Assembly: GCF_005473905.2 (NCBI RefSeq)
Contig: NZ_CP061336.1
Span: forward strand, 3,836,501-3,900,500
From: Ruminiclostridium herbifermentans
GTDB lineage: Bacteria > Bacillota > Clostridia > Acetivibrionales > DSM-1351
Direction: 5' to 3'
DNA length: 64,000 nucleotides
Below the pieces are notes generated by a model that was not told where the DNA came from, searched no databases, and saw only the letters and a list, made by a program, of their open reading frames with translations. A program made the position numbers and the translations under genes. Of the stretch, positions 2,618 to 32,402 are shown one piece after another; the first letter of the stretch is position 1; each line of letters opens with the position of its first letter.

Positions 2618-3646
2618 TCAACAGCAGAAATGCCCATATCTATTAGTTAGTTTTTTTATAATGCTTATTAAATTCTTAGCAACACTTTCATTATCTCCAA
2701 CAATACCATAAGTTGCATAATTAAATATTCCCGCATTTTTATCATTATTAACTGCTATTATAGTGTTGCAATTCAGTATCCCAGAAACATGCTGAAGCGC
2801 TCCAGATATTCCGAAAGCCAAATATACATTACAGTTCAGGCTTATCCCAGTTTGTCCGATTAAATTGTTTTTATCAGCCCAATCGTTTTCCGATGCAGGC
2901 CTCGTAAATCCTATTTCAGCATTTAGCAGTTTTGCAAGTTCCTTTATAATAAGATATACCTTCTTCTCTTTTACACCTCTTCCAATACCTATAACTATAC
3001 TTGATTTTTCTATAGAATTACAATTTAGGTTTTCTGTATTCAAAACATCAATAATCCTTAGTAAAGACTTATCAGTTCCTTCTCTTCTTAACCTGATAAT
3101 ATCGCCAATTCTTTTTTCATCCCTTTTTTGTTCTTTTGCTATGCCCCTTTTAACAGTTGCCATCTGAGGTCTTGTATTCTGACATTTAATTTCTGCATAT
3201 AGGTTTCCTTCGAAAGCAGGTCTCTTTTGAATTAGTATTTTTACATCGTTACTATCCATTTTTAAATCCGTACAATCGGCTGTAAGGCCAGTCTTCAAAT
3301 TATAAGAAATCTGAGGTGCAATTGATTTTCCCAATAAACTTCCGGTAAATAAAAAAACATTAGGCCTATAATCCTTGCAGAAATCCGTTAACATATCTAC
3401 AAGTAGATCTTCTTGAAACAAACTCAAGTTATTCTCAAGAACATATACGATGTCACTACCATATTTAATTAAACTGTGTGCATCCTCATCTTTAAGGTTA
3501 TTGTGTATAACAACTGCACATAGTCGTTCTTTAGACGCTATTGCCAATTCTTTTCCAACACTTAGAAGCCTATATGTATCTTCATTTATCACGCCATTAT
3601 GGTATTCTATAAATACAAAAACATCCTTATAATTATTTAAACTCAT
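2618..3646 (-). CDS. etfA: Electron transfer flavoprotein, alpha subunit
   Basis: The start at 3646 is preferred over the ATG at 3664 because GAGAGG lies 6 nt before it. The protein (342 residues) has the ETF N-terminal domain and a C-terminal FAD-binding domain with the usual signature: GFTRPASENDW, IGQTG, AFGISGALQH and an AVNNDKNAGIF block near residues 240-320. With EtfB it forms a soluble heterodimer that passes electrons between a flavin dehydrogenase and a downstream acceptor. It is the last gene of the run, after etfB, and near an acyl-CoA dehydrogenase homologue at 6778-7884, the obvious redox partner. A dedicated ETF inside a biosynthetic cluster implies that the pathway contains an oxidation or reduction of a CoA-linked or carboxylic intermediate. 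Whether it bifurcates electrons cannot be told by eye. Confidence 0.9.
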   Translation of the reverse strand: MSLNNYKDVFVFIEYHNGVINEDTYRLLSVGKELAIASKERLCAVVIHNNLKDEDAHSLIKYGSDIVYVLENNLSLFQEDLLVDMLTDFCKDYRPNVFLFTGSLLGKSIAPQISYNLKTGLTADCTDLKMDSNDVKILIQKRPAFEGNLYAEIKCQNTRPQMATVKRGIAKEQKRDEKRIGDIIRLRREGTDKSLLRIIDVLNTENLNCNSIEKSSIVIGIGRGVKEKKVYLIIKELAKLLNAEIGFTRPASENDWADKNNLIGQTGISLNCNVYLAFGISGALQHVSGILNCNTIIAVNNDKNAGIFNYATYGIVGDNESVAKNLISIIKKLTNRYGHFCC

Positions 3647-3681
3647 ACTTAACCTCTCTGACATAAATTATGTTAATTTGC

Positions 3682-4419
3682 CTATTTAAGTATTTCTATG
3701 ATTTCTCTTTCAGTAATGAATTGGCATTTAGATGAATAAACTGGTTTATATGTAGCCACAACTTGTGTTGGAGAACCATATAACCCTATGCTATCTATTT
3801 CAAGACTTAAATCCTTATTATTCCATACTTTGGGTTCATAGTCCTTATATTTTACCAATTCCCTCAATGATATGTACTTAGGTTCACAAATATCTTTTTT
3901 AACAGTAATAACCACTGGAAGTTGAGCCTCCAGTACAACATCTCCATAATCTGATTTTTTGATAACTGTTATATTTTTACTACTTATATCCTTAATCATT
4001 TTAACATATGGAATATATGGAAGATTGAGACTTGCAGCAATAGAACCTCCTACCTGGCCAGTCTCACCATCTAAAGTTTTTTCTCCGCAAATTATTAAAT
4101 CATATATCAAGTTTTTGTTTAAAGCATGAGATATTATTTTAGCTGTAGCATAAGTATCTGAACCAGCAAAAGCATTGTCACTAAGCAGTATTACCTCATC
4201 AACTCCCAGATATTTTGCCTTTTTTAATACATTCTTAGCTGCCAATGGTGCCATTGAGATCACAGTAACTCTGCCACCATGCTTTTCCTTTAAATTAAGT
4301 GCTGTATGAACTGCCTTAATATCGTAAGGATTAATAAATATACCTGGTAACTTATATAGGCTTTGAGAACTCATTTGCCTATTATTAACCACTGCTTTTA
4401 CACATACCACAATATTCAT
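3682..4419 (-). CDS. etfB: Electron transfer flavoprotein, beta subunit
   Basis: 245 residues, the normal length for EtfB. It shows MNIVVCVKAV at the N-terminus, INPYDIKAVHTAL, the SDNAFAGSDTYATA block, and the signature ICGEKTLDGETGQVGGSIA (residues about 110-130), which binds AMP or FAD in this family, then AQLPVVITVKKDICEPKY. It lies 35 bp upstream of etfA and 24 bp after the thiamine-diphosphate enzyme, so it is almost certainly in the same operon. Function with EtfA as an electron carrier is established for the family; the partner being the acyl-CoA dehydrogenase homologue of this cluster is inferred. Confidence 0.9.
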   Translation of the reverse strand: MNIVVCVKAVVNNRQMSSQSLYKLPGIFINPYDIKAVHTALNLKEKHGGRVTVISMAPLAAKNVLKKAKYLGVDEVILLSDNAFAGSDTYATAKIISHALNKNLIYDLIICGEKTLDGETGQVGGSIAASLNLPYIPYVKMIKDISSKNITVIKKSDYGDVVLEAQLPVVITVKKDICEPKYISLRELVKYKDYEPKVWNNKDLSLEIDSIGLYGSPTQVVATYKPVYSSKCQFITEREIIEILK

Positions 4420-4443: not shown

Positions 4444-6138
4444 TTATTTCATAGACCTCAATACTTCATTAAACCATTTAAGTCCCGGACTATAAGAGTT
4501 CTTATCGACCATAGCATTTATACATACAGTCTTCTCTAGCTTCATAGCCTTATTAAGTATTTCCAGCATATCTTCTTGTTTTTCCAGCAAAAATCCATGT
4601 CCACCTAAAGCTTCCGTCACCTTGTCATAATATACCATCCCAATATCAGCAGCATATACATCATTATACAAAACTTCTTGAGTTGTTTTGCACAATCCCC
4701 ATGCAGCATCATTATGTATTACAATAGTTATTGGTATTTCATATTTAATCGAAGTATCTATTTCCATCATATTAAATCCTATTGAACCATCGCCTGTATA
4801 TAAAAGTACTCTCTTTTCAGGTGCTGCTACTTTTGCACCTAATGCTAAAGGAAGTCCGCATCCCATAGACCCATGTGTACCATCAGGTGCTATTATTATC
4901 TGTCCTATTTCCGTTGCTTTAAAGAGTAGACTACCCCAGAACATAGCATTAGATCCATCTAATACTATTATAGTATCTTTCTCTATTTCTGCCTGTATAC
5001 CTTGTATTAGTTTCATAGGATTAATCAAGCTTGTCTCACTATAATTCTCTTTATACAGTTCTGTCCAGAACTTCTCTGTATTTTCGTCTAATACTTTAAC
5101 CCACTGACTTTTGTTCATAGCTATATTTTTTTCTTTATAAGCATCTATTAACCCCTTTAAACATACATTAATACTTCCCACTATCTCTAAGAACTTTTTG
5201 CAATTAATATAGGTATACTTATCATTACTTTCTGTGATAAAAATGAATGTTTGGTTTTCATTAAACACTGGTTTATCAAAGCTTGACATCTGATAATCCT
5301 TATTGACACCAATACAAAGTATCGTATCAGCTTGTGAAAGTGCATAAATTTGCGGTCCTGCTTCAAGAACACGGCCTAAACCATAACAATAGCTTTTGTC
5401 ATCTGATATCAATCCTCTAGCTTTATTTATTGTAAAAACAGGTATTTTTGCAATCTCGACAAATTCATTCAATAAAACCTCGGCTTTAGAATAGTATGCC
5501 TCGTCCCCAACCAAAACAATAGGTTTGTCTGCATTTGCTAAAACATCTACAACTTCAGCAAATGCTTCACTCGGAACATAATTTACTAAGTAATTTTCAT
5601 AATTTCTAATACACTGAATGCTTTCCGGCGACTCAATCTCTCTTCTTAGTATGCTTATTGGTATTTCAAGTACCACAGGGCCACGCCTACCTTTGTATGC
5701 AACCTCAATTCCTCTTGCTATATACTCTTTTATTCTTTTTGTATCATGCACCGTTGCACACCATTTACAGTATTGTCTGACCATTGATAACTGATCCATG
5801 TCCTGAAGTGCACCTTTATCTTTTTGCTCAGTAACAACGCTACCTACTATAATCAGAATCGGTGTTTCAGCCATATATGCTTTAACTATACCGTTTATCG
5901 AGTTACTAAATCCTGGTCCGCCAGAAACCATAGCTATCCCGCACTGTCTTTTGATCTGTGCCCATCCGTCAGCCATATGTACAGCGGCCTGTTCGTGTCG
6001 TACACCGATAAATTTCAAACCATATTTTTTCATATGAACTAATATTGGTGATATTTGATTTCCAACTAGTCCAAATGCAACATCTATTCCTTGCTCTTTA
6101 ATTGCCTGCACCAGTAGTTCTCCACCACTGAAAGTCAT
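4444..6138 (-). CDS. Thiamine-diphosphate-dependent enzyme (acetolactate synthase / 2-oxoacid decarboxylase superfamily)
   Basis: 564 residues with the three-domain plan of acetolactate synthase-like enzymes. The N-terminal Pyr domain has the cofactor-activating glutamate in GVRHEQAAVHMADG (about residue 44) and SGGPGFSN; a central NAD/FAD-like domain follows; the C-terminal PP domain has the diphosphate-binding GDGSIGFNMMEIDTSIKYEI (about residues 445-465) ending in NDAAWG. Such enzymes decarboxylate a 2-oxoacid and either protonate the result to an aldehyde or join it to a second carbonyl to give an acyloin. Substrate is not predictable by eye; an arylpyruvate-type compound made by the neighbouring genes is a reasonable guess. 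It starts 3 bp after the bicupin gene and is followed by etfB. No ilvN-type regulatory subunit is present, arguing against housekeeping branched-chain synthesis. Confidence 0.85.
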   Translation of the reverse strand: MTFSGGELLVQAIKEQGIDVAFGLVGNQISPILVHMKKYGLKFIGVRHEQAAVHMADGWAQIKRQCGIAMVSGGPGFSNSINGIVKAYMAETPILIIVGSVVTEQKDKGALQDMDQLSMVRQYCKWCATVHDTKRIKEYIARGIEVAYKGRRGPVVLEIPISILRREIESPESIQCIRNYENYLVNYVPSEAFAEVVDVLANADKPIVLVGDEAYYSKAEVLLNEFVEIAKIPVFTINKARGLISDDKSYCYGLGRVLEAGPQIYALSQADTILCIGVNKDYQMSSFDKPVFNENQTFIFITESNDKYTYINCKKFLEIVGSINVCLKGLIDAYKEKNIAMNKSQWVKVLDENTEKFWTELYKENYSETSLINPMKLIQGIQAEIEKDTIIVLDGSNAMFWGSLLFKATEIGQIIIAPDGTHGSMGCGLPLALGAKVAAPEKRVLLYTGDGSIGFNMMEIDTSIKYEIPITIVIHNDAAWGLCKTTQEVLYNDVYAADIGMVYYDKVTEALGGHGFLLEKQEDMLEILNKAMKLEKTVCINAMVDKNSYSPGLKWFNEVLRSMK

Positions 6139-6140
6139 AA

Positions 6141-6761
6141 TTAAGTCTCCCTCCTGCTTATTTGTATTATTAGCATCTCTTCATCTGGATTATTTATCCT
6201 CAAATCAAAATCTTCATTGGTACAGCCTTCAAGTTTATAAATTTTCATTGGGTAAAGATTTATTTCCTTTCCTGCATTCCATATAGCAATTTGTTTTTCT
6301 GTTACAAGAAAAAAATCAAAATTTGATGACTTATCTATTGTTATAGACGCAGCTTCTTCTTGGCTCATAACCCTGAACAACTTATGTTTGCCTAGAGTTA
6401 CATCGTTTATCTTTATTTTTTTTCCAGAAATAATACTGCTTAATGGAGATATCTTTACTTTATCCTTATCAATGTACTTAAAATCTAATGCGAAAAAATC
6501 TTCATCTGAGTTGGCACTATGTTCTAAATTCTTATCAATTAGATAGGATGTGTTCTTCTCTATATCATATGATGTGTTTTCTACTATGAAGTTGAATTTA
6601 CCCCAAAAACAAAATCCAAATTGCTCATGTTCATGTTTATGTGCATCCAACAGTACACCTTTATTTATTTTTGACAGTAATATTTCAAAATTTTCTTCCT
6701 TATAAAACGCTTGATAAAAACCTTCTTTAACAATTTTCTCATCTGAAACTTCCCTAATCAT
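6141..6761 (-). CDS. BacB-like bicupin protein
   Basis: 206 residues. The first cupin (residues about 25-100) has a metal-site pattern HKHEHEQFGFCFWG with a later histidine in KNLEHSANSDED. It resembles the metal-binding cupin of BacB, the bacilysin enzyme that isomerises the dihydro-hydroxyphenylpyruvate made by BacA. The second half (residues 110-200) looks like a degenerate cupin without the histidines. It lies one gene away from a BacA-like protein (7899-8537), which strengthens the comparison. Likely role: isomerase or oxygen-independent tautomerase acting on an unstable dihydroaromatic intermediate. It could also be a regulatory cupin. It overlaps nothing and is spaced 2 bp from the downstream gene, so it is co-translated. 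Confidence 0.6.
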   Translation of the reverse strand: MIREVSDEKIVKEGFYQAFYKEENFEILLSKINKGVLLDAHKHEHEQFGFCFWGKFNFIVENTSYDIEKNTSYLIDKNLEHSANSDEDFFALDFKYIDKDKVKISPLSSIISGKKIKINDVTLGKHKLFRVMSQEEAASITIDKSSNFDFFLVTEKQIAIWNAGKEINLYPMKIYKLEGCTNEDFDLRINNPDEEMLIIQISRRET

Positions 6762-6777: not shown

Positions 6778-7884
6778 CTATATAAATCTTGAGATAGACC
6801 ACTTCATTACCTCTGAAACACCACCTAAAATAGTCATTATTCTTATATCCCTATAAAGCTTTTCAACTTTCACTCCTTTTACATACCCATATCCACCAAA
6901 ATATTGCAGGCATTTATCGCATATCTCTTTTGCTTTTTCAGTAACAATTAGTTTTGATATTGAAGAATGCAGTATCTTACCCTCAACATTTTCGCTGTAT
7001 ATGTTTCCAGTGTAATATACCAATGTTTCCATCATCTCTAAATTTGCTTTTATTTCTGCTAAATCATATTTTACCGATTGCATTTCAAATAAAGGCTGCC
7101 CATTAATAATTCTGACTTTACTATATTCAACAGCTTCATTGAAGGCTCTTTGAGCAATCCCTAATGCAACGGCACTGTTACAGATTCTCATCAACTCCAT
7201 ACTTTTCAAAATTACTTCAAGACCTTTACCAATACCCAATAGGATATTATCTTTATGTACTTTAGCATCCTCTAGATAAATTTCTGAAACAGCCATAGAC
7301 TCTAATCCCATAGTTTCTTCTGTCTTACCTATTACGATGCCATCGGTATTCTTTAAATCTACAATGAAGAATGTATTATTATTGTCAACTAGAGCATTAA
7401 CAAGGGCATATTGGGCAGTACCTGCACATGTTATCATGTTTTTTATTCCATTTAATATATAATAATCACCATCTTTATGTGCAATAGTTTTTATTTCTTT
7501 TTCCGGTTCATTGACTGCAAGTGTACCTATATAATTTTCTCTTAAAGTATTACTTAAGAACAATTCCTTTTGTTCTTGAGTGCCAAGCAAATATATGGGA
7601 TAGCAGAATCCGAAATTAATCGTTTCAAGTACATGCGCCAATGACGGATCTGAATATGCAATTCTGCTTATTATCAGCAAGGCGGAAACCGCATCCAATC
7701 CAACACCGCCAAACTCTTCTGACACCATAAGTCCTTTATATCCAAGGCTTCCAAGCTGTTCCAAAACTTCATATAAAAATGTTTTTTTATTTATATCATT
7801 ACTGTTCTGCTTTTCTATGACATTCAGAATAAAGTCATCTATCGATTCTTTTATCTCATTTTGAAAATCATTAAATAAATACAT
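6778..7884 (-). CDS. Acyl-CoA dehydrogenase homologue with unusual active site
   Basis: 368 residues from the ATG at 7884, which has GAGGTG 4-6 nt upstream. The fold is clear: helical N-terminal domain, a middle beta domain (TLAVNEPE, YYILNGIKNMITCAGTAQYALV), and a C-terminal flavin-binding domain with QYFGGYGYVKG and KLYRDIRI. In typical family members the catalytic glutamate lies in an EGTSEI motif near the C-terminus; here the equivalent is ILGGVSEV, with Gly instead of Glu. The alternative glutamate used by isovaleryl-CoA dehydrogenases (in a DLER motif) aligns with methionine in MELMRI. So classic alpha,beta-dehydrogenation may not be its reaction, or the base is elsewhere. Electrons would go to EtfAB of the same cluster. 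Confidence 0.85.
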   Translation of the reverse strand: MYLFNDFQNEIKESIDDFILNVIEKQNSNDINKKTFLYEVLEQLGSLGYKGLMVSEEFGGVGLDAVSALLIISRIAYSDPSLAHVLETINFGFCYPIYLLGTQEQKELFLSNTLRENYIGTLAVNEPEKEIKTIAHKDGDYYILNGIKNMITCAGTAQYALVNALVDNNNTFFIVDLKNTDGIVIGKTEETMGLESMAVSEIYLEDAKVHKDNILLGIGKGLEVILKSMELMRICNSAVALGIAQRAFNEAVEYSKVRIINGQPLFEMQSVKYDLAEIKANLEMMETLVYYTGNIYSENVEGKILHSSISKLIVTEKAKEICDKCLQYFGGYGYVKGVKVEKLYRDIRIMTILGGVSEVMKWSISRFI

Positions 7885-7898
7885 ATAGCACCTCAATA

Positions 7899-8537
7899 TT
7901 AATCAAGTTTATTATTTTTAAATATAACCCATAGAATTTTTGCACTATATCTGGGAGTGATGAACTTTATTCCTTTACCCTTATAAATTTCATAAGAAGA
8001 TTCGTTGGTCACACCTATATCTGTTATTCCATTGGCTACAAATTCAGCAGCTTGAGCAGTAGAAAATGTTCTTACCAACTCGAGATTATAGTTTTCCTGT
8101 ATATCCTTGCCTATAAAATTTACAATTTTCTCAACCGCTGGACAACTAGCTATTTTTACATCTATTGACTTTGAAAAAACATAATCATTTTTTGATATAA
8201 TTCCATATTTGGGTGTTTCATAAATAAAACTTAAAACATTTGAAAAGTCCTTGCACCAGAAAAAATCCGTAATTCTTTCATAAGCTGCCGGAACTAGTGC
8301 ATAATCTGTTTTATTACACCTCAGTTGTTCATAAACTTCATTAAAATTATCCTTCAGATCAATACTATAATTACAAGCACTGTTAACTTTAGATAATTCA
8401 TCAACTAGGAATAATGCTGCACAATTACTGCTTGTCCCAACTGGCCCAAGAGTTACTATCTTTAAACTACTTTTATGTCTTAATTCAAATTTGAACTTTT
8501 CAAATTGCTCTATAAATGGAGACATAATCAATTCCAT
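7899..8537 (-). CDS. BacA-like prephenate-processing enzyme (prephenate decarboxylase/dehydratase fold)
   Basis: 212 residues. The N-terminal VTLGPVGTSSNCAALFLVDEL motif and the two-lobed layout (ALVPAAYERITDFFW in the middle, then TFSTAQAAEFVANGITDIGVTN) match the prephenate dehydratase fold. The dehydratase TRF catalytic motif expected near the C-terminus is absent, as in BacA, the bacilysin enzyme that decarboxylates prephenate without aromatising it, and no ACT regulatory domain follows. I therefore place it in the BacA-type group, with prephenate or an amino analogue as candidate substrate. An AroQ-type mutase in the upstream block (15493-15777) could supply it. A second possible start is the ATG at 8525. 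Adjacent genes are spaced 14-18 bp, indicating one operon. Confidence 0.6.
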   Translation of the reverse strand: MELIMSPFIEQFEKFKFELRHKSSLKIVTLGPVGTSSNCAALFLVDELSKVNSACNYSIDLKDNFNEVYEQLRCNKTDYALVPAAYERITDFFWCKDFSNVLSFIYETPKYGIISKNDYVFSKSIDVKIASCPAVEKIVNFIGKDIQENYNLELVRTFSTAQAAEFVANGITDIGVTNESSYEIYKGKGIKFITPRYSAKILWVIFKNNKLD

Positions 8538-8554: not shown

Positions 8555-9985
8555 TTATTTTGTTTTAATAACTTCTTTACTGATTATATCCTTTGCTGAC
8601 ATTCTTTCTAGATCATCATAAGCAGCCTTTTTTGTCCTTTTATCTATTATCCTTGCTGCTTTCCAACTGACCAATGAACCTGTGTATATAACGGGATTCA
8701 ATTCATCTGAAAATGAAACTGTATTCTTAATATTGAAATACTCATTGAATCTTTTCTCAATCTCTTGTAATATACCAGAGTTTTCATATTCTCTTTCAAG
8801 CATTTCTATTTTTATTTCAACATGATCTAATCCATCAGGATTATCAATAATCATCTGGTAGCCTAAACAGTTGGCTATATTAGTCATTATTGCCTTTTCA
8901 ATATCAGATGCTTTGTACTCAACTCCACCAAGCAAAATCCTGTCCTTAACTCTGCCCAATATTTCTATTTCTGGGGAAGGTATTGGTCCATTGGGATTGA
9001 TGCCGATTTTAACAATATCTCCAGTTCTATATCTTATTAGTGGCTTCCCACCAGGATTAAGCATCGTAACTACTAATTCTCCTTCACCCTCCTGACCTAT
9101 TACTTCTTCAGTCTCATAATTAATTACTTCATATATGTAGTTATGAGGGAAAATATTCATTTTCCCATTTTTATTGCATGTAGCCATTACCAATGCTTCT
9201 TGAGAACCATATAAGAAATTGAATACCTTAGCCCCCCATAACTTTTCTATATTATTAATCATAGGTTCAGTACACATTTCTCCTGTCAACATAAACATTT
9301 TGATATTAAAATCCTTTTTGATATCATATCCATGCACCTTAGCAGCCTTTAACAATGTCATGGATAATCCAGGAGTACACATAATTACCTGAATGTTTAA
9401 TTTTTTTATCAGTTCCAGTGCCTTTTCAAAGCCTATTATAGGTGAATAAGGCCATGCTTTAACAGCGCATAGATCAAGATTATGGCATACATTACCCAAA
9501 GTATCTCCAAATGAATGAATTTCTGTTGGTCCATAAACTCCTACTACAGGTTTTTCATCGCCAAAAACACTTTCGAAAACCTGCTTGTACATAAGAGATA
9601 TTGTAATATTACTAGACATAACATCTATCATACTTCTTGGACAAGGTGTAGCTTTCCCTGTTGTACCTGTTGTTTCATAGTAATAAGCATTTTTATGTAT
9701 TGGCTGTGATAATATATCAATATCTGCATCCCTTAAAGTTTCTTTTGTTGTAAATGGGAGTTCCTTCATTGTTTGTAACGTATAACTACCGAATTTATTC
9801 TTATAGGCTTCTAAAGCATTCTTGTAGTATTTTGAATTATTGTACACATATTCTAGAATTTCATTAAGTTTCTGATTCTGATAGTTTTCCAATTCATTAT
9901 CAACTAATTCTCCATCAAAAAACTTTTTAACTACCTTTTTGTAACTATTCAAGAATTTTTGATTTTCTTCATTAATAATATGCAT
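8555..9985 (-). CDS. PaaK/CapK-family adenylate-forming enzyme (aryl- or acyl-CoA ligase)
   Basis: 476 residues. Signatures of phenylacetate-CoA ligase-like enzymes are present in order: TTGTTGKATPCPRS (ATP-binding loop, residues about 105-118), VYGPTEIHSFGD, FLYGSQEALVMATC, then LIRYRTGDIVKIG and GRVKDRILLGGVEYKASDIE at the hinge to the C-terminal domain. The enzyme should activate a carboxylic acid as an acyl adenylate and probably transfer it to CoA. The absence of carrier-protein or NRPS genes favours CoA. The acid could be anthranilate or another product of the chorismate enzymes next to it; this is inferred from context only. It lies 25 bp after the upstream amidotransferase/chorismate-binding fusion, and an AAGGGTGG ribosome site supports the start. 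Confidence 0.85.
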   Translation of the reverse strand: MHIINEENQKFLNSYKKVVKKFFDGELVDNELENYQNQKLNEILEYVYNNSKYYKNALEAYKNKFGSYTLQTMKELPFTTKETLRDADIDILSQPIHKNAYYYETTGTTGKATPCPRSMIDVMSSNITISLMYKQVFESVFGDEKPVVGVYGPTEIHSFGDTLGNVCHNLDLCAVKAWPYSPIIGFEKALELIKKLNIQVIMCTPGLSMTLLKAAKVHGYDIKKDFNIKMFMLTGEMCTEPMINNIEKLWGAKVFNFLYGSQEALVMATCNKNGKMNIFPHNYIYEVINYETEEVIGQEGEGELVVTMLNPGGKPLIRYRTGDIVKIGINPNGPIPSPEIEILGRVKDRILLGGVEYKASDIEKAIMTNIANCLGYQMIIDNPDGLDHVEIKIEMLEREYENSGILQEIEKRFNEYFNIKNTVSFSDELNPVIYTGSLVSWKAARIIDKRTKKAAYDDLERMSAKDIISKEVIKTK

Positions 9986-10010
9986 AATCTATCCACCCTT
10001 TCGTAAATTG

Positions 10011-12128
10011 TTAAACATCTAGTTTCTCTAATGCTTCTTTAATTGCTGCAGTTTTATGCTCTATTTCATTCCATTCAGATTCCGGAATAGAATCTGCTAC
10101 AATTCCTGCAGATGCTTGTAAATATAAATTATCTCCCTTTCTCAAAACTGATCTAATTATTATTGAAGTAATAGCATTTCCATTGAAATCAAATATGCCA
10201 AATGCACCCCCATATGGTCCCCTTTGTTCATCCTCTAACTCTTCGATTATTTCTAAAGCACGTACTTTCGGTGCACCAGATAATGTTCCGGCTGGAAAAG
10301 TACTTTCAAATAACTCCATTGTATTTGAATCTTTTGAAATATTACCTTCAACATTGCTTATCAAGTGGAATACATGAGAGAATTCCTCTGCTCTCATCAA
10401 CTTGCTTACTTTAACTGTCCCTGCCGTAGCCACTCTTCCAATATCATTTCTAGCCAGATCTACCAACATTATATGTTCCGCCTGCTCTTTTGCATCATTT
10501 ACCAGCTCGTTCAACAGTTTTTCCTTTTCTTCTTCATTTACTCCCTTACCCTTAGAAGTGCCTGCTATTGGTCTTATTTTGACATTCAAGTCTTCAACCC
10601 TAAGCTGTAGTTCAGGACTATTGCTTATTATTTGATATTCACCAGCATTCCAATAGAACATATAAGGAGAAGGATTCATCTCTCTAAGTTTCTTGTAGAG
10701 TCTTAATGGTTCTATTTTTTTATTAATACAAAGTCTTCTCCCAATTTGTACCTGGAATATATCTCCTTCATAGATATATTTTTTGGCTTTTTCAACTTTT
10801 GCAATAAAATCTTCCTTTTTCATATTGGAAGTTATACTCAAAATATCTCCACTGGGAATTTCATCAGGATAAATAATTTCGCTTGGTAATACATCTAATA
10901 ATTTCTGTTCATTAGCATAGCACTCGTCATCTAAATAATTACTTACAATTATTAAATCTGAGGAATCTTTCAGCACATGTATTATAGTTGAAAAGTAGCA
11001 CAAGTGTACATCTGGCAAGTTTAGAACATCAATATTTTTCTTTTCAACTTTCTCTATATACCGAAAATAATCGTAAGAAAAGTATCCGATTAATCCTTGA
11101 CTAATATTTAAATTAAAATCATGTTTTCTAACTGTTTTGAACATACTTTTTATAATAGGATATATATCTGAAAACTTTTTATCCCCAAGGCAAAAAACAT
11201 TATTAGCCGAATCATACATATCACTAAAATTATTAATAAACAGATTCTTAATCTCATCATTTTTTGAATCAATTAACATTTTTTTATCTTTAATAATAAT
11301 TTCAAATTTAGGAAATACACCGATGTAACTACTTCCGCAGTCTTCTACAGGACCATCAACTGAATCTAAAATACAACTGTTTTTTTCTCCAAAACTAAAC
11401 TGTATTTTTTTTAATATTTCAAAGGCATTTTGATCTGTTTTTAACTTTACTGCAGATTGGATTACCTCTTTAAAGGCAGTAGCTTGAATGGCTTTTTCTT
11501 TTTTCTCTATGCAAAAATTCTCACCAACATTTAGATTTTCAAAATTTCGTATATACTTTCTTGTTCTATCTAAATATGTCTTGAGCATATCTTTGCCCTT
11601 CTCAGTCATTACGGATTCTGGATGAAATTGTACACCCTCTATATTATATTTTTTATGTTTAATTCCCATTATCTGACCATCTTCAGTCTCACAGGTTATG
11701 TCAAAACATTCTGGTAACGTATCTCTATCCACCACTAAGGAATGATACCTAGTAGCTATAAACCCTTCTTTAAACTCGCTCATGATTCCTTTATCAAAAG
11801 TAGTAATCCTAGACATTTTGCCGTGAAATAAACTATTGGCATGAATTATCTTTCCACCAAATGCTTCACCTATTGCCTGATGCCCCAAACAAATTCCAAA
11901 AATTGATATATCCCCTGCGAACCTTTTTATAACATCTATGCATATACCTGCTTCACTTGGAGTTCCTGGACCTGGAGATAGGAATATTGCATCTGGGCTT
12001 AATTCTTGTATTTTCTCCAGTGATATAGCATCATTTCTTACACAATAAACATCATTTCCAAGTTCTAATAAATATTGATAAACATTAAATGTAAAAGAAT
12101 CATAATTATCTATAAGAAGTATTTTCAA
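10011..12128 (-). CDS. Fused glutamine amidotransferase / chorismate-binding aminating synthase (copy B)
   Basis: 705 residues from a TTG start at 12128, chosen because GGAGGG lies 8 nt upstream and the paralogue aligns from there. Residues 1-190 are a class I amidotransferase with the Cys in FGICLGHQ and the His-Glu in VQFHPES, so ammonia release from glutamine should work. The rest is a TrpE/PabB-like chorismate-binding domain with the lysine-free [10 protein letters not shown] motif near residue 520, [23 protein letters not shown] and [12 protein letters not shown]. Aminodeoxychorismate synthases have PIKGT with a nucleophilic lysine; PIAGT is the anthranilate/ADIC synthase type, which aminates C2. 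Amidotransferase-first order is unlike PhzE or rhizobial TrpE(G). It starts the second transcript of the cluster. Product: anthranilate or 2-amino-2-deoxyisochorismate. Confidence 0.85.
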
Positions 12129-12277
12129 TTTAATCACCCTCCATTGATTTTATAAATGCTAATACCTTTGTATTAAATTTTTACTAAATGTGTTGATATC
12201 AGAATCCTTTTTTCAGAAATTCATTACAAATAATAAATACTCCATATAATTATCATCCTCAACTTCTACACTTCAGT

Positions 12278-12743: not shown

Positions 12744-13301
12744 TTATCCATTCCATCTTTTTGAAATATAGGTTTCTATGCCAAACTGATCAAGGATTTT
12801 CATCACATGATGGTTGATGATATCTTCAAGTGTTTCAGGGCGATTATAGAAAGCTGGCATAGGCGGTACAATTCTTACACCCAATCTTGAAAGCTTCAAC
12901 ATGTTTTCAAGATGAATTGCATTTAGAGGTGTCTCTCTAGGGCATAAAACCAGTTTTTTTCCTTCCTTGAGAACTACATCAGCTGCTCTTGAAATGAGGC
13001 TTTCGCAGTAACCATTTGCTATTGAACTTAATGACTTCATACTGCAAGGAACAATAATCATTCCATCGGTAATAAATGACCCGCTTGAGACTTTAGAACC
13101 CAAATTACCATTGTCAAACACCTCATCAGCAAGACTTTCAATATAATCATATGTGTAGACAGTTTCTATCTCAAGATTCTTTTTTGCCCATTCGCTCATT
13201 ATAAGATATGCTTTCACATTATTGATTCTCCTTAATGCCTCCAAAAGCCTTATTGCATATATAACTCCTGTTGCCCCAGTTATTCCAACTATTAGCTTCA
13301 T
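12744..13301 (-). CDS. ubiX: UbiX-type flavin prenyltransferase
   Basis: Start taken at 13301 (MKLIVGITGATGVIYAIRLL), the conserved N-terminus of the family; an in-frame ATG at 13313 overlaps the upstream stop. The protein (185 residues) shows the FMN-binding GATG loop, a MIIVPCSMKSLSSIANGYCESL block and a C-terminal LVLCPRETPLNAIHLENMLKL segment followed by VPPMPAFYNRPET, all standard for UbiX/Pad1. The enzyme attaches a dimethylallyl group to reduced FMN, making the prenylated FMN cofactor needed by UbiD decarboxylases. The UbiD homologue of this cluster (15874-17289) is the evident customer, and two flavoprotein reductases in the cluster could supply reduced FMN. Ends the first block of the cluster. 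Confidence 0.93.
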   Translation of the reverse strand: MKLIVGITGATGVIYAIRLLEALRRINNVKAYLIMSEWAKKNLEIETVYTYDYIESLADEVFDNGNLGSKVSSGSFITDGMIIVPCSMKSLSSIANGYCESLISRAADVVLKEGKKLVLCPRETPLNAIHLENMLKLSRLGVRIVPPMPAFYNRPETLEDIINHHVMKILDQFGIETYISKRWNG

Positions 13302-13309
13302 CGTACCCC

Positions 13310-13660
13310 TCATATGTTTTTACTTCTTAGCATAATACATAATTCTTCAGCTATCTCCTGACATAATTCAAATGAGTAATTTATTTCTTCAGAAGATATA
13401 TTATCCAAATGTATACCGCAGCAAATAGCAAAATTGCCCTTATATTTTCTTTTTAATATACTAGAAAACAAATCTGTAATAACATTTTCCTTATGCTTCT
13501 TAAAAGTGAATGTTCGAAAGGCTTCGGTGCAAGAACCCACTGTTACTGCTCCCAAGTGGGGGCTATCACCTCCCGTCAGTATAATACACAAATCATTTCC
13601 CATACTGACCGCCATCATTTTTATTTCCAAACGATTTCTCTTTCTGGTTATCTGTATCAT
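13310..13660 (-). CDS. LpdD-like small subunit / prenylated-FMN chaperone
   Basis: 116 residues. The central ILTGGDSPHLGAVTVGSC and the later CCGIHLDNISSEEI match the small proteins (LpdD/VdcD type) that travel with UbiD-family decarboxylases such as gallate decarboxylase and are proposed to help insert or mature prenylated FMN. The GAGG ribosome site is 6 nt before the ATG. Its stop codon overlaps the alternative start of ubiX, so the two are translationally coupled. Its presence, with UbiX and UbiD, gives a complete decarboxylase maturation set devoted to this cluster. Family assignment is from motif recall and fairly sure; the exact chaperone role is from the family literature. Confidence 0.75.
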   Translation of the reverse strand: MIQITRKRNRLEIKMMAVSMGNDLCIILTGGDSPHLGAVTVGSCTEAFRTFTFKKHKENVITDLFSSILKRKYKGNFAICCGIHLDNISSEEINYSFELCQEIAEELCIMLRSKNI

Positions 13661-13736
13661 TTAAAGCCTCTGTTACATCTTAACTTAATTTCCAAACACA
13701 TTTGTCGCTAGTATTATATCAGTATAGGCTAGCAAC

Positions 13737-14693
13737 CTATTCTATGTTTGCGACTAATTTGGTATATGGTGTATCTATGTTTAAGCTTTCTCCTAATGTA
13801 ATTATTGTATTTGCGTATAATTCTCCCTCATTATGCTCTTTCATTTGTTCAATATCTCTTTGATATGATGTTTTTGTATCAGCCGGATATTTTCTTACCA
13901 ACTCAATGCAATCATCTATTATGTTATCGGACATATTAATGCCTTTTTTATCAGCTATGCTTTTAATTTCTCTCATGATATTTTTAAGGATATTTAATAA
14001 ATAGCTGTCCTCAATAACCCTTCCCATCGTGACTCCAAATTTAGCCGTAACTAAAGCAAACGAGCATATAAGTATGTATTTTTCATAAATCAATGGGTAT
14101 GGATTATCAACCCATTGGAATTGTATTCCTGCCCTTTCGAATAATTTAAATAAATCATAGGGAATGTAAGAATAATTTTGAGGATCACGTCCAAACACTA
14201 TTCTTCCATTAGGGCCTGTCTGCTTAATAACTCCTGGCTTATCTATATATGAAGCTATATACACACAGGCAGGAAAAACTATTCCCTTATCACATACTTG
14301 TCTAATTCTCTCATATATGTCTATTCCATTTAAGAGAGGTAAAATAACTGTATCATTTGTAATCTTATCCTTTATAGACTCTATAGCACCGCATAAATCA
14401 TAACTTTTCGTGCATATAATGTAAATATCTGCAGGAGGAATCAATGAAGCATCATTCACTACTGCATATGGTTTAATAATTATTTCTCCCTGTTCCTCGG
14501 TATGCATAGTCAGCCCATTTGAATATATTTCTTTATAATGCTCTCCCCTTGCTACAAAATAAACTCTAAAATCCTTATCCTTTATAAAATGTGTACTAGC
14601 TGACATAGATTGACAAAGTTTACCTCCAAAATATCCTCCAACACCGCCAACACCATATATGCAGATATTTATTATTTTTCTTATTTCGCTCAT
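13737..14693 (-). CDS. Ketopantoate reductase-like NAD(P)-dependent 2-oxoacid reductase
   Basis: 318 residues. The N-terminus ICIYGVGGVGGYFGGKLC is a Rossmann dinucleotide-binding loop; VVNDASLIPPADIYIICTKSYDL and ILPLLNGIDIYERI (residues about 75-130) are typical of the PanE/ApbA family, as is the helical C-terminal domain with SYQRDIEQMKEHNEGELYANTI (the usual spot for substrate-binding Ser/Glu). Housekeeping PanE reduces 2-dehydropantoate; within this cluster a different 2-oxoacid, for instance an arylpyruvate or dihydroaromatic pyruvate, is more likely. Upstream is a hairpin at 14801-14838, and downstream the LpdD-like gene follows after about 75 bp. Confidence 0.8.
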   Translation of the reverse strand: MSEIRKIINICIYGVGGVGGYFGGKLCQSMSASTHFIKDKDFRVYFVARGEHYKEIYSNGLTMHTEEQGEIIIKPYAVVNDASLIPPADIYIICTKSYDLCGAIESIKDKITNDTVILPLLNGIDIYERIRQVCDKGIVFPACVYIASYIDKPGVIKQTGPNGRIVFGRDPQNYSYIPYDLFKLFERAGIQFQWVDNPYPLIYEKYILICSFALVTAKFGVTMGRVIEDSYLLNILKNIMREIKSIADKKGINMSDNIIDDCIELVRKYPADTKTSYQRDIEQMKEHNEGELYANTIITLGESLNIDTPYTKLVANIE

Positions 14694-14800
14694 TTAGTTC
14701 CCTTCTGTTAGAAAAAATATTACTATCAGATTTTCTCCTCAAACTAATCCTTTATAATACTTTATTGCTTTAAAGATGTTTAAACTGGAAATACATATTA

Positions 14801-14838
14801 GGCAAAAGACTAAAGCAAAAAGCCTTAGTACTTTTGCC
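14801..14838 (-). terminator. Stem-loop between two cluster genes (attenuator-like)
   Basis: GGCAAAAG-ACTAA pairs with TTAGT-A-CTTTTGCC: 13 pairs with a single bulged base and an 11-nt loop. It sits 38 bp after the stop of the quinone-reductase-like gene and about 110 bp before the next gene. No good U-tract follows, so it may act as a transcript-processing or partial termination site. Confidence 0.5.
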
Positions 14839-14875
14839 CATAATAGTATATGTAAATTTAAAATATAATTATATA

Positions 14876-15475
14876 TCAGCCCTCTTTTGGAAAATATCTG
14901 ATAACAGTTTCCTTTACATCATCAAGCCAAGACTTTCTTTCTTCAATGGTACTAGTTACGATAACCCCGTACATCTTTCTATAAAAATTATTAACACCGC
15001 ACAACCCAAAAATGCAATTTTTCCATATTGTTTCAAGCGGATCACCAAATACATTCATCTCTCTCTCATGATAAGTATTTGATGTATTAAAAACAATGGC
15101 TGCTTTTGCCTTCAGCAAACCGATAGGAACACCTTCACCGCTGTCATTTTCTTCAAACTCATAAGTCACTCCAGGTCTAATAACCCTATCTATCCAGCCC
15201 TTTAATAATGCTGGAGGCTGTCCCCACCAGTTCGGATGTACTATAATTATACCATCGGCATTTGCTATCTCATTGCAGTGATTGCTAATAACATCATCAA
15301 CACAAGCCCCTTTAGGTATTTCCGCACTTCTTAAAATCGGGTCAAAACTTTCTTCATACAAGTCATGATATATTACCTCATGTCCTACACCTTCAAGAGT
15401 TTCAACTACCATATTCGCAATCGCATGATTAAAGCTTCCCTTTTTTGGATGAGCCAAAATTACAACAATTTTCAT
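14876..15475 (-). CDS. Flavodoxin-fold NAD(P)H:quinone oxidoreductase-like protein
   Basis: 199 residues. The N-terminus KIVVILAHPKKGSFNHAIANM and the block IIIVHPNWWGQPPALLKGWIDRVI (residues about 75-100) followed by GLLKAKAAIVFNTSNT are diagnostic of the NQO1/MdaB/KefF family, which transfers hydride from NAD(P)H through FMN or FAD to quinones and similar acceptors. In this setting it could reduce a quinoid or dihydroaromatic pathway intermediate or supply reduced flavin. It starts 17 bp after the chorismate-mutase-like gene with an AAGGAG ribosome site and is likely co-translated with it. Confidence 0.85.
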   Translation of the reverse strand: MKIVVILAHPKKGSFNHAIANMVVETLEGVGHEVIYHDLYEESFDPILRSAEIPKGACVDDVISNHCNEIANADGIIIVHPNWWGQPPALLKGWIDRVIRPGVTYEFEENDSGEGVPIGLLKAKAAIVFNTSNTYHEREMNVFGDPLETIWKNCIFGLCGVNNFYRKMYGVIVTSTIEERKSWLDDVKETVIRYFPKEG

Positions 15476-15492
15476 TTCTTTTCTCCTATTTT

Positions 15493-15777
15493 TTAGTTAT
15501 TCCTTTTTCTCAATATTTCAAGTTGCATATCTGTAATCACTTTAATTATGTTTTTATATATCTCTACAATCAATTCCTCATGACCGCCTGCTTGTACTGC
15601 CTTATTTCTAACTTTATCCAGTACTATTTTTACTCTGTCACAACCAATTACTTCTTCCTCACTTGTTTTATATTCTACAATTTTTAATACACAATCTATT
15701 CTTTTTACCAGTGATTCTACAATTACATTATCTATCTTATCAATTTCCGCTCTTACTTTTTCTATTTCTTCTTTCAT
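15493..15777 (-). CDS. AroQ-type chorismate mutase-like protein
   Basis: 94 residues, all helical, the length of a stand-alone AroQ chorismate mutase. The start VRAEIDKIDNVIVESLVKRIDCVLKIVEYK carries the conserved R..ID.iD..iv.ll..R pattern and a helix-1 lysine (YKTSEEEV); later come RVKIVLDKVRNKAVQAGG and a final helix. AroQ proteins convert chorismate to prephenate, but relatives act as 4-amino-4-deoxychorismate mutase (PapB) or isochorismate pyruvate lyase (PchB). In this cluster the substrate could be chorismate or the aminated chorismate made by the fusions; the BacA-like gene would accept a prephenate-type product. Perfect AAGGAGG ribosome site upstream of the ATG. Confidence 0.8.
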   Translation of the reverse strand: MKEEIEKVRAEIDKIDNVIVESLVKRIDCVLKIVEYKTSEEEVIGCDRVKIVLDKVRNKAVQAGGHEELIVEIYKNIIKVITDMQLEILRKRNN

Positions 15778-15873
15778 AAAACCTCCTTCATAATTTCATT
15801 TATATAATTAATTGTATAATATAAATAATATTACATAAGCTTAACGCTATTTCATTTTATGGTATTTCTATAC

Positions 15874-17289
15874 TTAATAATTATAGAATGTTCTTTTAAA
15901 TTCATTTTTCATGTTCCATGGTACTGTACAGTCAAATACAGCCTTTGCTGTATTTCCGATTGCATTAATGCTTTTCGAGTACTGTGGAGACTGTGTGAGA
16001 TCTGCCGAGAAACCAGGCATGTTCTGAATCAATGTGAAATCTTTGTCTGCCTGAAACCGCGTGGTCATAGCCCATAATACATCCTCATGGGAATAAATAT
16101 TAACATCCTCGTCAACAATTATGACGTGCTTTAGCATATGGAAGGCAGAAAGAGCCAATAATCCTGCCTGCTTAACTAAAGCATCATCCCTTTCAGACTT
16201 CTTTCTTATTTGCAGAATTAAGAATAAAAGTCCTCCTCCTGCTGAACTATAATGGGCATTAATAAAATCTCCATAAAGATTTTCCTTCAAAAGCTTAATT
16301 ACAGATGCCTCAGCAGGAATACTCAGAAGTTCTGACTGCTCCTTTCCAGGGCCAAGTAAGGCTTGGTAAACTGCATCATTTCTATGTGTAATAGCTTTTA
16401 TTTTTACCAAAGGTATAGAGCTTTTTGCAGTACCTTGATAACCAAGAAATTCAGGAAGAGAAAATCCTAATGGATCATTTAGATTTTCATTTACCAATTC
16501 ATTTGTAATCTCGCCTTCCAGAACTATCTCCGCATTACTTATACATAATGCATCAACTGAAATACATTTTGAAACATTTACAGGACATCCTCTAATGCCA
16601 CCTGCAATAGAAAGTTCATCATCACCAGTAGCAACTGTTGGATTTGAAAAACAAGCTGCATAATAAATTGCTGGATCCAATCCAATATTTATTGATATAG
16701 GAAGACTTGCATTTTTCTTAATAGCTTTATTATATAGCACTCCCAAATCACGACCTGGAACAATCCATATACTCATCGTATCCTTACTGTGAATGCAAAA
16801 CCTATGTATAGAACAGTTTCTTTGGCCTGTTTCTGGATCAGTGGCATATACAACACCAAGTGTGATAAAGGGTCCGCAATCGTACTTTGACAAAGTTGGT
16901 ATTGGAAGAAGCTTCATAATATCCACGTCTCTTACTATATTTTCCTGACATGGCGGATTATCAAGGCTCTTAGGTGGAATTCTGTTTTTAAGTGCATTTA
17001 GCATAACCTCTATCACGGAATTATTATTTTGACTGCTAAGCAAAAGGTTGCTCCTTTTTCTGCTTCCAAATAAACCCATTAACACAGGAATAGAATAACC
17101 TTTTACATTTTTATAAAGAATGGGAGACCCCTCTATACAATTAGGAGATGCTGGTACGCCCGCTCCATGATTTACATAATGCATCGCCAATTCGCAATTT
17201 GCATCAATTGGTTTGGTATACTCTAAAATACTTTCTCCTTGACTTTCGAGGAATTTTACTGCTGAGCGTAAGTCATTTATTTTCTCCAT
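15874..17289 (-). CDS. ubiD: UbiD-family prenylated-FMN-dependent (de)carboxylase
   Basis: 471 residues from ATG 17289, chosen because family proteins begin just before a DLR..l..lE pattern (KINDLRSAVKFLESQGE); a start at 17313 is possible. The protein carries family blocks in order: NCIEGSPILYKNVKGYSIPVLMGLFGSR, CGPFITLGVVYATDPETGQRN, IHRFCIHSKDTMSIWIVPGRDLG, a GGIRGCPVNV segment, then NDPLGFSLPEFLGYQG, where the final Glu is the expected catalytic acid, and an ALLGPGKEQ block. These enzymes decarboxylate, or sometimes carboxylate, aromatic or alpha,beta-unsaturated acids. UbiX and an LpdD-like protein in the cluster supply its cofactor. Its start lies inside the end of the upstream cupin gene, so translation is coupled. 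Confidence 0.92.
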   Translation of the reverse strand: MEKINDLRSAVKFLESQGESILEYTKPIDANCELAMHYVNHGAGVPASPNCIEGSPILYKNVKGYSIPVLMGLFGSRKRSNLLLSSQNNNSVIEVMLNALKNRIPPKSLDNPPCQENIVRDVDIMKLLPIPTLSKYDCGPFITLGVVYATDPETGQRNCSIHRFCIHSKDTMSIWIVPGRDLGVLYNKAIKKNASLPISINIGLDPAIYYAACFSNPTVATGDDELSIAGGIRGCPVNVSKCISVDALCISNAEIVLEGEITNELVNENLNDPLGFSLPEFLGYQGTAKSSIPLVKIKAITHRNDAVYQALLGPGKEQSELLSIPAEASVIKLLKENLYGDFINAHYSSAGGGLLFLILQIRKKSERDDALVKQAGLLALSAFHMLKHVIIVDEDVNIYSHEDVLWAMTTRFQADKDFTLIQNMPGFSADLTQSPQYSKSINAIGNTAKAVFDCTVPWNMKNEFKRTFYNY

Positions 17290-17623
17290 AAATATTATCA
17301 ACTCCGATTTCATCGACTACAAACACAACTGTTTTATCATTGTCTAGACCTTTTGAACGATGTTTTACACCGTCAGGGATTACAAAACCCATTCCTGGTT
17401 TGCATTCATAGCTACTGTCTTCAAACATTATTGTAAATACACCGCTTAATACATATCCTTGGTGTCCTATTTCACACCATTTTTCTTCGTTAAATCCTGC
17501 TGGAAGTTCAAGAATCCTTACTCTTTTGCCATTGCAGAACACCATCTTTACTCTTCCTACTGCTCCAGGCTTGTCCCACTTTTTCCATTCAATGTTGTTA
17601 AAATCAATACCTACATTATCCAT
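17273..17623 (-). CDS. Small single-domain cupin protein
   Basis: 116 residues from the ATG at 17623 (a TTG at 17644 is the alternative; AAGGGG lies between them). One cupin fold is visible: VRILELPAGFNEEKWCEIGHQGYVLSGVFTIMF then GMGFVIPDGVKHRSKG. The metal-binding pattern is atypical, with one His in EIGHQGYV and one in PDGVKHR. It may be an isomerase or ligand-binding accessory protein for the aromatic pathway. It overlaps the start of the UbiD gene by 17 bp, a tight coupling that suggests the two proteins are made in similar amounts. Confidence 0.65.
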   Translation of the reverse strand: MDNVGIDFNNIEWKKWDKPGAVGRVKMVFCNGKRVRILELPAGFNEEKWCEIGHQGYVLSGVFTIMFEDSSYECKPGMGFVIPDGVKHRSKGLDNDKTVVFVVDEIGVDNIYGENK

Positions 17624-17681
17624 TTCTATATAATCCCCTTTCAAAAATTATTTGATTATTTTTTAATATTTATTTTTTACA

Positions 17682-19838: not shown

Positions 19839-19868
19839 ATTATACCCTTTCTATATGCCGCTAACAGC

Positions 19869-20450
19869 TTAAACTACTGCTTGCCTTTTCTCATAGTAAT
19901 ATTCCACCATTCTGGTTATACATCTGTTGATAGAATTTTTCCCTTCCTCATCAAGCATTGCATCTCCAGGAAAGTCTCCATCACACATTACTACAAGAGG
20001 AAAACCACTTCCAAGAATAATCATTTCATTTAGGTAAATATTCATAAAAATTTGTGAAATTACACTAAGATGTGCGTATCTTCTTCCAACAGCAATGACA
20101 TTAGCGAGCTTATCTTTTAAAGGACGTCCTTTAGTTCTTAAGAATCCAAAACCACATCTTTCAAGAAATTTCTGCATAATCGAATTTGTTGAAAAAGCAT
20201 AAACAACTGGTAAGTAAATAATTGCATCTGCTTTTAACATTTTGTCCACAATCTTTGGCATATCATCATCAATAACACATGTACCCTTATCACACATATA
20301 ACATGATTTACAATTTTCAATTTTATAGTCACTGATATATACACCTTCTATTGTATATTTATTACTTAATTCATGGTTCTTCAAGTATTCAAATATATTA
20401 GAAGAGTTTCCATTTTTTCTTGATGACCCAATTAAAACCAGAATATTCAT
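19869..20450 (-). CDS. NADPH-dependent FMN reductase / iron-sulfur flavoprotein-like
   Basis: 193 residues, flavodoxin fold. The N-terminus NILVLIGSSRKNGNSSNIFEYL is the phosphate-binding loop for FMN; residues about 48-58 (CKSCYMCDKGTC) give a compact four-cysteine set, as in iron-sulfur flavoproteins of anaerobes, though the spacing may also be a zinc or structural site. DAIIYLPVVYAFSTNSIMQKFLER is the usual flavin-contact region. It is the first gene after the strong promoter at 20484-20512, and it could provide reduced FMN for UbiX or reduce a pathway intermediate. Confidence 0.8.
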   Translation of the reverse strand: MNILVLIGSSRKNGNSSNIFEYLKNHELSNKYTIEGVYISDYKIENCKSCYMCDKGTCVIDDDMPKIVDKMLKADAIIYLPVVYAFSTNSIMQKFLERCGFGFLRTKGRPLKDKLANVIAVGRRYAHLSVISQIFMNIYLNEMIILGSGFPLVVMCDGDFPGDAMLDEEGKNSINRCITRMVEYYYEKRQAVV

Positions 20451-29740: not shown

Positions 29741-29745
29741 GTAAA

Positions 29746-32041: not shown

Positions 32042-32042
32042 C

Positions 32043-32402
32043 TTAACAGCACCCCTTTGGTCCGCAGCAGCCACTCTTCTTTTGAGGTTTTGTGCTTATT
32101 TCCACCCCTAACCATTCTGAAAACTCTTCGTTTGTTGGGTAGCTTTTGGTTTTTACAATTTCACCATCTGCCAGTGTTACAGGAAGAATATCTGCTCCTT
32201 CCTTTTGTAGAATTTCACTTATAACTTTATTGGAGATAAAATCCTGGGGTTCACTAGACAAACCATGCCTTTTTATAATAATCCCTTTTTCTTTAAGCGA
32301 ATTAATTACAGTTGCTACTCTTAACAGCTCCGGATCAATAGATGGACCACAAACTCCTGTTGAGCAACACATTGCTGGGTCAAAAATCTCAATATTTTTC
32401 AT
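32043..32402 (-). CDS. arsD: Arsenic metallochaperone ArsD
   Basis: 119 residues from the ATG at 32402 (AAGGAGG 6-7 nt upstream). The N-terminus MKNIEIFDPAMCCSTGVCGP has the family's Cys12-Cys13-Cys18 arsenite site; a second cysteine group CCGPKGCC lies at the C-terminus. Known role: takes As(III) and hands it to ArsA, raising pump efficiency; it may also bind weakly as a repressor. Sits between arsR and arsA as in many bacterial operons. Confidence 0.93.
   Translation of the reverse strand: MKNIEIFDPAMCCSTGVCGPSIDPELLRVATVINSLKEKGIIIKRHGLSSEPQDFISNKVISEILQKEGADILPVTLADGEIVKTKSYPTNEEFSEWLGVEISTKPQKKSGCCGPKGCC

Follow-up and report, generated by a model that had tools for sequence, protein, structure and literature searches.

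Acyl-CoA dehydrogenases (ACADs) have a glutamate base as their catalytic hallmark. Cyclohex-1-ene-1-carboxyl-CoA dehydrogenase (PDB codes 7p98, 7p9a and 7p9x) is said to be an ACAD that acts on a ring without this base. In ordinary ACADs the glutamate takes the α-proton, the β-hydrogen goes to N5 of FAD, and the K-x-W/F-I-T isoalloxazine motif plays a part in the transfer of electrons to Etf (PMC6017585). In Mcd, a related ACAD, the change T317G at the threonine of this motif opens the enzyme to O2 (PMC6017585). An ACAD acting beside a six-membered ring is represented by ThnO, the 2-carboxycyclohexylacetyl-CoA dehydrogenase, which introduces an exocyclic double bond (PMC11659651).

In the bacilysin pathway BacA and BacB convert prephenate into isomers of dihydro-4-hydroxyphenylpyruvate, and BacG then performs a reduction, which the review cited here places on the epoxide form (PMC9147277).

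The window analyzed here, a stretch of 64,000 nucleotides from Ruminiclostridium herbifermentans, encodes an ACAD homolog that lacks both of the usual glutamates and is flanked in its operon by BacA-like and BacB-like genes. A preliminary description of this DNA had pointed out the two missing glutamates, while the flanking genes did not appear in it, and the operon setting is the new element. Among the papers listed in a literature search that lay mostly outside subscription journals, there was no description of a Glu-less ACAD subfamily, and the one paper joining prephenate decarboxylase with acyl-CoA dehydrogenase had, to judge by its title, another subject.

The Glu-less ACAD and its relatives

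The N-terminal, middle and C-terminal ACAD domains (PF02771, PF02770 and PF00441) all score above cut-off in the window protein, whose listed open-reading frame begins four codons upstream of the ATG, at a TTG. The AlphaFold2 model, built from 27 sequences, has a pLDDT of 92.6 and a pTM of 0.92, and by this model the protein is a member of the ACAD superfamily with its fold intact. In the structural comparison short-chain ACADs come first (Z 52.5; 366 residues superposed with an rmsd of 1.7); the matches also include the caffeyl-CoA reductase CarC (6fah, Z 49.4), cyclohex-1-ene-1-carboxyl-CoA dehydrogenase (7p98, Z 49.0) and the entries 1egd and 1ege, titled as human MCAD T255E, E376G. By sequence the top PDB match is CarC, although narrowly, as a plain ACAD follows with an almost equal score, and for the relative at locus L008 the best match is MmgC with CarC in sixth place. 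The best curated models for both the window ACAD and the co-encoded EtfA are the acryloyl-CoA reductase subunits, far under their cut-offs.

The replacement of the canonical glutamate by glycine and of the DLER-type glutamate by methionine, the latter read by eye in the preliminary description, is borne out by the raw sequence and by alignment. Gly354 occupies the place of the glutamate in the EGTSE motif, with ILGGVSEV pairing in phmmer alignments with IYEGTSQV and EGTSEV of solved ACADs, and Met232 occupies the alternative site directly before the conserved arginine, with MELMR pairing with LDVGR and LDGGR. The flavin motif is altered as well, reading K-N-M-I-T with Met150 in place of the Trp or Phe, and the GSD loop of the window protein is changed and shortened.

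Six homologs from five genomes form one clade in a tree of 32 proteins, with branch support of 100/100, and the grouping recurs in all of the 200 bootstrap trees (100%). A previous tree, of 47 proteins with four of the members among them, agrees on the clade. Twelve long fusion proteins (>450 aa) were omitted from both trees and retained in the residue counts, and 19 further closely related rows were omitted from the second tree. Every clade member (6/6) has Gly at the first site, while the second site is Met in four and Ser in two. The comparison set consists of 67 ACADs from loci fetched in the same searches, with L072 dropped as its ACAD reading frame was not recovered there. The canonical Glu is present in 65 of these and the alternative Glu in two, leaving none with neither; L054 and L055 carry Ser at the canonical site and Glu in the alternative column. 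With Gly throughout the clade and a Glu at one site or the other in the entire comparison set, the state of Gly354 and Met232 is more than chance.

A relative from Anaerobacterium chartisolvens (L002) is 51% identical to the window ACAD and reads TILGGTSE and MELMR. A relative from the same genus (G278, L008), at 37% identity, has TIFGLTSE and NKMR, with Gly at the aligned Glu position. In a genome from another family of the order (G396, L018) the gene is split over reading frames, through either a sequencing fault or decay; it is counted by its C-terminal fragment alone, for Gly354 and Met232, and this fragment carries SIIGGTSE and MEIMR. By eye, and outside the counts, its N-terminal fragment has His at position 84 and another frame reads K-A-M-I-T. 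G701, a genome from outside the class, has two members (TIMGGSTE and TIMGGTSE, both with Ser at the second site), which are its sole ACAD matches in the search. The reading of the window copy as a pseudogene was rejected, given its intact reading frame and relatives at 37–51% identity.

Clade members were found in four of 58 genomes of the order. In searches that scored first-look candidates, at most four per genome, members appeared among 398 genomes of the phylum in G000 and G701 only, at no less than 607 bits with the next protein at 331 bits, and among 391 genomes of the class scores above 320 bits occurred in G278 and G000 only. From these sequence comparisons the existence of a distinct Glu-less ACAD subfamily is nearly certain, and the clade, as sampled, is rare and comes from Clostridium-like bacteria.

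The Trp/Phe position of the flavin motif is Met in all five readable clade members and Phe, Trp or Tyr in all 67 other ACADs. His84 shows the same pattern, being present in 5/5 readable members and 0/67 others. It is located in a helix predicted by the AlphaFold2 model (residues 80–100), which we take to be the counterpart of the helix that lines the acyl pocket in MCAD. Thr152, which matches T317 of Mcd, is retained in 5/5. A screen for polar residues that three clade members share without exception and that 55 ordinary ACADs seldom have yielded three proton-capable side chains absent from all 55, namely His84, Thr191 and Ser237. In the G701 copies Ser237 is replaced by Ala, and Thr191, although invariant, belongs to the middle domain. 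No new clade-wide Asp or Glu stood out in the substrate-side helix 80–100 when the clade was compared with these 55 ACADs. The preliminary description had considered a glutamate elsewhere in the active site as the finding that would speak against it, and at the sequence level none was seen: Glu87 of the window protein has Ala, Glu, Asn and Asn as its counterparts among the remaining full-length members, four in number, and is thus not a conserved replacement. His84 appears to be the strongest candidate for handling the proton or for binding a ring.

Operon and gene setting

The ACAD gene is one of eight consecutive, co-directional genes of the minus strand, which span 12137 to 2618 and are separated by 2 to 25 bases. 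The preliminary description had credited the ACAD with its own EtfAB and a CoA ligase-like gene, and EtfB, EtfA and a PaaK-like ligase are indeed members of the operon.

Table 1. Positions of features in the window; the first eight rows are the genes of the operon in their order.
Feature	Position	Strand	Remark
Fused glutamine amidotransferase/chorismate-binding (TrpEG-type) enzyme	10011..12137	minus	PIAGT motif
PaaK-like AMP-dependent ligase	8555..9985	minus	476 aa
BacA-like protein (prephenate decarboxylase type)	7899..8537	minus	212 aa; lacks ACT domain and NxTRF
Glu-less ACAD homolog	6778..7884	minus	368 aa; ATG at 7884, stop ends at 6778; Pfam and alignment
BacB-like cupin	6141..6761	minus	206 aa
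ThDP enzyme	4444..6138	minus	564 aa; acetolactate synthase/oxalyl-CoA decarboxylase/benzaldehyde lyase family
EtfB	3682..4419	minus	245 aa
EtfA	2618..3664	minus	348 aa
Gly354 of ACAD	6825-6823	minus	codon; canonical Glu site
Met232 of ACAD	7191-7189	minus	codon; alternative Glu site
Met150 of ACAD	7437-7435	minus	codon; flavin motif residue
His84 of ACAD	7635-7633	minus	codon; clade-specific residue
Run of genes next to the operon	12744-20450	minus	see text
Ketopantoate-reductase-like gene	13737-14693		
Arsenic-resistance genes	28688-32074	minus	ACR3-like, ArsD-like, ArsA-like; by eye
Prophage	about 33000-63000		terminase, portal, capsid, tape measure, serine recombinases; by eye
IS21-like pair	41481-43518		within the prophage region

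The 212-aa BacA-like protein has no Pfam family match and matches the prephenate dehydratase model weakly. A search with a profile built from this protein plus three relatives brought up, in two other genomes, genes of 203 and 207 aa, which are followed by a cupin gene of 235 or 238 aa and then by an SDR-like gene (neighbors assigned by eye), as in the bacABC order. A tblastn search with the L018 homolog returned 20 plasmid records, with a BacA annotation in nine of the 15 listed. On the Streptomyces plasmids L092 and L093 the BacA-like genes have an aminotransferase and a gene of the phenylacetate-CoA-ligase family beside them, within NRPS/PKS genes. The NxTRF motif is absent from eight BacA-like sequences and present in an aligned prephenate-dehydratase-like protein of L012. 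By its sequence the 212-aa protein fits the prephenate decarboxylase (BacA) type, with a prephenate-dehydratase-type domain, a length of about 200 aa and a profile that finds BacA.

BacB consists of two cupins, each with an HxHxxxQ...H set of metal ligands. The profile of the neighboring cupin has BacB 3h7j (1.3e-14) and 5zbe (3e-8) as its two best PDB sequences, and the first ligand set, here His41, His43, Gln47 and His81, is invariant in all seven aligned sequences. In the same alignment the second set is absent from the second half of the window cupin.

EtfB carries DGETGQVG, which may correspond to the FAD-binding motif of bifurcating Etf, and EtfA is without the two CxxCxxC motifs (a ferredoxin-like extension) present in EtfA of L009, L018 and L019. 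EtfA and EtfB are the only PF01012 proteins found in the window genome, and the ACAD is its only PF00441 protein. A separate prephenate dehydratase is encoded elsewhere in this genome. From this gene content as a whole, the ACAD–Etf module probably serves the pathway of the operon alone. A role in fatty-acid or butyrate metabolism was rejected, the genome's only PF00441 protein and only Etf pair both being in this operon.

Two of the four chorismate-binding enzymes of the genome are in the ACAD region, and both, which are TrpEG-type, carry the PIAGT motif. The corresponding motif of PabB is PIKGT. A 4-aminated prephenate route was rejected on these grounds, and anthranilate-type products are likelier. 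The run next to the operon (Table 1) contains genes for UbiX (VdcB-like), a PAC-like chaperone, ketopantoate-reductase-like and flavodoxin-fold proteins, an isochorismate-lyase-like CM_2, UbiD (VdcC-like), a cupin, the second TrpEG-type fusion and an FMN reductase, and perhaps represents a linked aromatic-acid pathway. The SDR family has no match in the operon or in the adjoining run.

ACAD, BacA-like, cupin, ThDP and Etf genes are clustered in four of the five genomes with clade members, where the genes of the relatives were named by eye. Among the 58 genomes of the order, a BacA-like match occurs in six and a clade ACAD in four, all within the six; the chance of such an overlap, calculated by hand, is 15 in 424,270 (about 4e-5) if the genomes are taken as independent, which they are not. 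Moreover, the analysis set out from the window genome, and of the four sequences in the BacA profile one came from a locus found through its ACAD. G112 and G086 have BacA-like genes without a clade ACAD, and in G112 (L010) a Glu-bearing ACAD is found near the BacA-like gene. In the same G112 locus, of the genus of the window, L010:4536-16087 holds, in a single run, a NifH-type gene (392.6 bits, cut-off 394.35), two NifE/BchB-like subunits, and IPMS/homocitrate-synthase-like, LeuC/LeuD-like, DAHP synthase-chorismate mutase, BacA-like and ACAD genes; the nitrogenase-like genes possibly encode a nitrogenase-like reductase of secondary metabolism.

A DAHP synthase/chorismate mutase fusion, assigned by eye with the model run on a similar L010 protein, lies beside the cluster in L008 and also in L032, and points to a supply of prephenate. 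The L008 cluster (G278) also contains a U32 peptidase-family protein (9785-10756). Relatives in this family perform O2-free hydroxylation with prephenate as the donor.

In G701, whose assembly consists of about 70 contigs, the genes are scattered, with the clade ACADs on contigs 24 and 11, the BacA-like, cupin and ThDP genes on contig 30 and the Etf genes on contig 40. By eye, a KASIII-like gene follows each of its clade ACADs, and another is present in L002. One of the two ACADs (L104:1-14235) lies by LeuC/LeuD-like, IPMS-like, IlvD, IlvC, radical SAM and KASIII-like genes, also named by eye, a set that suggests chain extension of a 2-oxo acid. From the arrangement in G701 it seems that members of the clade can function apart from BacA and BacB.

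Proposed function and its alternatives

The subfamily is proposed to act in a prephenate-derived secondary-metabolite pathway, coupled to Etf and likelier as an ene-reductase that takes the place of BacG; a probability of about 0.4 is assigned to this reading. The BacA-like protein would decarboxylate prephenate without aromatizing it and the BacB-like cupin would shift a double bond out of the ring, giving a product whose chain is a 2-oxo-3-enoate conjugated to the ring. The ACAD would then pass hydride between N5 of its FAD and this conjugated ring compound, with the electrons carried by its own EtfAB; its substrate may be either the 2-oxo acid or a thioester that the PaaK-like ligase has formed. 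In the reductive direction, the likelier one, hydride would be placed onto the far end of the system to form the enolate of a 2-oxo acid, or of a thioester with an extended system, in which the left-over charge would be delocalized across the ring and the keto or thioester group, making this enolate more stable than a simple acyl-CoA enolate. By general chemistry such stabilization may make a dedicated carboxylate base dispensable, and the proton could be handled by solvent or by the clade-specific His84. The ThDP enzyme would subsequently take the 2-oxo acid.

Reduction in the place of BacG is favored as the operon has no SDR-type gene and both ACAD and EtfA resemble subunits of clostridial reductases, below cut-off. 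The reductase reading is nevertheless weak, with a plain ACAD nearly equal to CarC, MmgC the best match for the L008 protein and short-chain ACADs leading the structural matches, and the ketopantoate-reductase-like gene of the window, or in A. chartisolvens (L019) a KR-like gene recognized by eye and lying about 22 kb upstream, could also act as a reductase. Further points against the proposal are the missing second metal site in the BacB-like cupin, the BacA-like genes of G112 and G086 in genomes without a clade ACAD, and the epoxide form on which the review has BacG act. The ACADs of G701 also speak against it, as they lie away from BacA-like genes and EtfAB, so that the substrate may not be the direct product of BacB. 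In its complete form the proposal is put forward as doubtful: an undescribed ACAD subfamily, in which solvent or His84 stands in for the Glu base, would serve as an O2-free counterpart of BacG, performing a vinylogous hydride transfer, driven by Etf, on a non-aromatic dihydrophenyl 2-oxo acid (or thioester) of prephenate origin.

The reverse direction, oxidation, could be served by an enzyme that acts on a ring-bearing CoA thioester through 1,4- or aromatizing elimination with its base on another helix. The PaaK-like ligase could supply such a thioester, and cyclohex-1-ene-1-carboxyl-CoA dehydrogenase, in which the Glu is reportedly lost and Asp91 used instead, is among the structural matches; the predicted helix of His84 also contains position 91. 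In the five full-length clade members, however, position 91 is Phe or Tyr and position 90 is Asn or Ser, with no acid at either (the 7p98 numbering is maybe off by one), and aromatization of a BacA product would presumably waste the BacA step. Such an activity is regarded as unlikely. The same grade is given to an ordinary α,β-dehydrogenase or reductase for acyl-CoA or acyl-carrier protein substrates whose Glu is replaced in function by a different residue or by a carboxylate of the substrate: the fold is kept along with most of the scaffold, and the KASIII-like genes noted by eye hint at thioester substrates, but the substrate-side helix offers no clade-wide new acid and the flavin-side Trp/Phe is Met in 5/5.

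The altered flavin motif and GSD loop might also mean that catalysis is weak or lost, and the protein could be a non-catalytic relative whose sole part is to bind EtfAB or to assist a different enzyme of the pathway. In keeping with this, both the Glu and the flavin Trp/Phe have been lost, as has the GSD loop in the window protein, and the MCAD mutants 1egd and 1ege, where E376G is accompanied by a Glu moved to 255 (T255E), indicate that Gly alone removes the base. The reading frames are nonetheless intact in five of the six members, the signature residues are held at identities of 34.7–55.3% between genomes, and Etf genes lie alongside in four of five genomes, which makes loss of function rather improbable. 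Most remote is an oxidase or oxygenase-type relative, an option named in the preliminary description. The loss of the Glu and the flavin Trp/Phe change resemble two of the three changes that turn Mcd toward oxidase activity, while the third and most effective one, at the Thr (PMC6017585), is absent from the clade, which keeps Thr152 in 5/5. The window ACAD is co-encoded with EtfAB, the only Etf pair of its genome, and the clade genomes, as relatives of Clostridia, are presumably anaerobic. Amine oxidation, also suggested earlier, found no evidence, whereas the idea of an unusual reaction gains support, as does its placement on an aromatic-ring precursor, through the BacA-like and BacB-like flanking genes. 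Within the proposed Etf-coupled pathway from prephenate, the Glu-less family may thus perform a reaction not yet described.

Comparison with known systems

The clostridial, Etf-linked acryloyl-CoA reductase AcrC and caffeyl-CoA reductase CarC are similar to the window ACAD in co-encoded EtfAB and in providing its best models and PDB match, narrow or below cut-off as these are. CarC, unlike the window protein, keeps the Glu (IYEGTSQV), and the operons differ. ThnO likewise retains its catalytic Glu363 and is catabolic (PMC11659651).

With the bacilysin pathway the operon has the BacA-like and BacB-like neighbors in common. The BacC, BacD, BacF and BacG types are unmatched among its proteins, and an ACAD, EtfAB, a ThDP enzyme and a ligase are found instead. 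The operon and its relatives point to little-explored biosynthetic gene clusters in relatives of Clostridium, based on BacA/BacB-type chemistry.

Cyclohex-1-ene-1-carboxyl-CoA dehydrogenase shares the fold (Z 49.0, 25% identity over the structural alignment), but its reported Asp91 contrasts with the lack of an acid at 90–91 in the window clade. The Gly at the position of Glu376 in human MCAD T255E/E376G (1egd and 1ege) is the same as that which the clade has by nature; the mutant is laboratory-made and has a Glu at 255, where the matching window position 232 is Met. A natural, conserved clade without the Glu, tied by its operons to prephenate-derived ring chemistry, offers a testable example of what the ACAD fold can do in the absence of its base.
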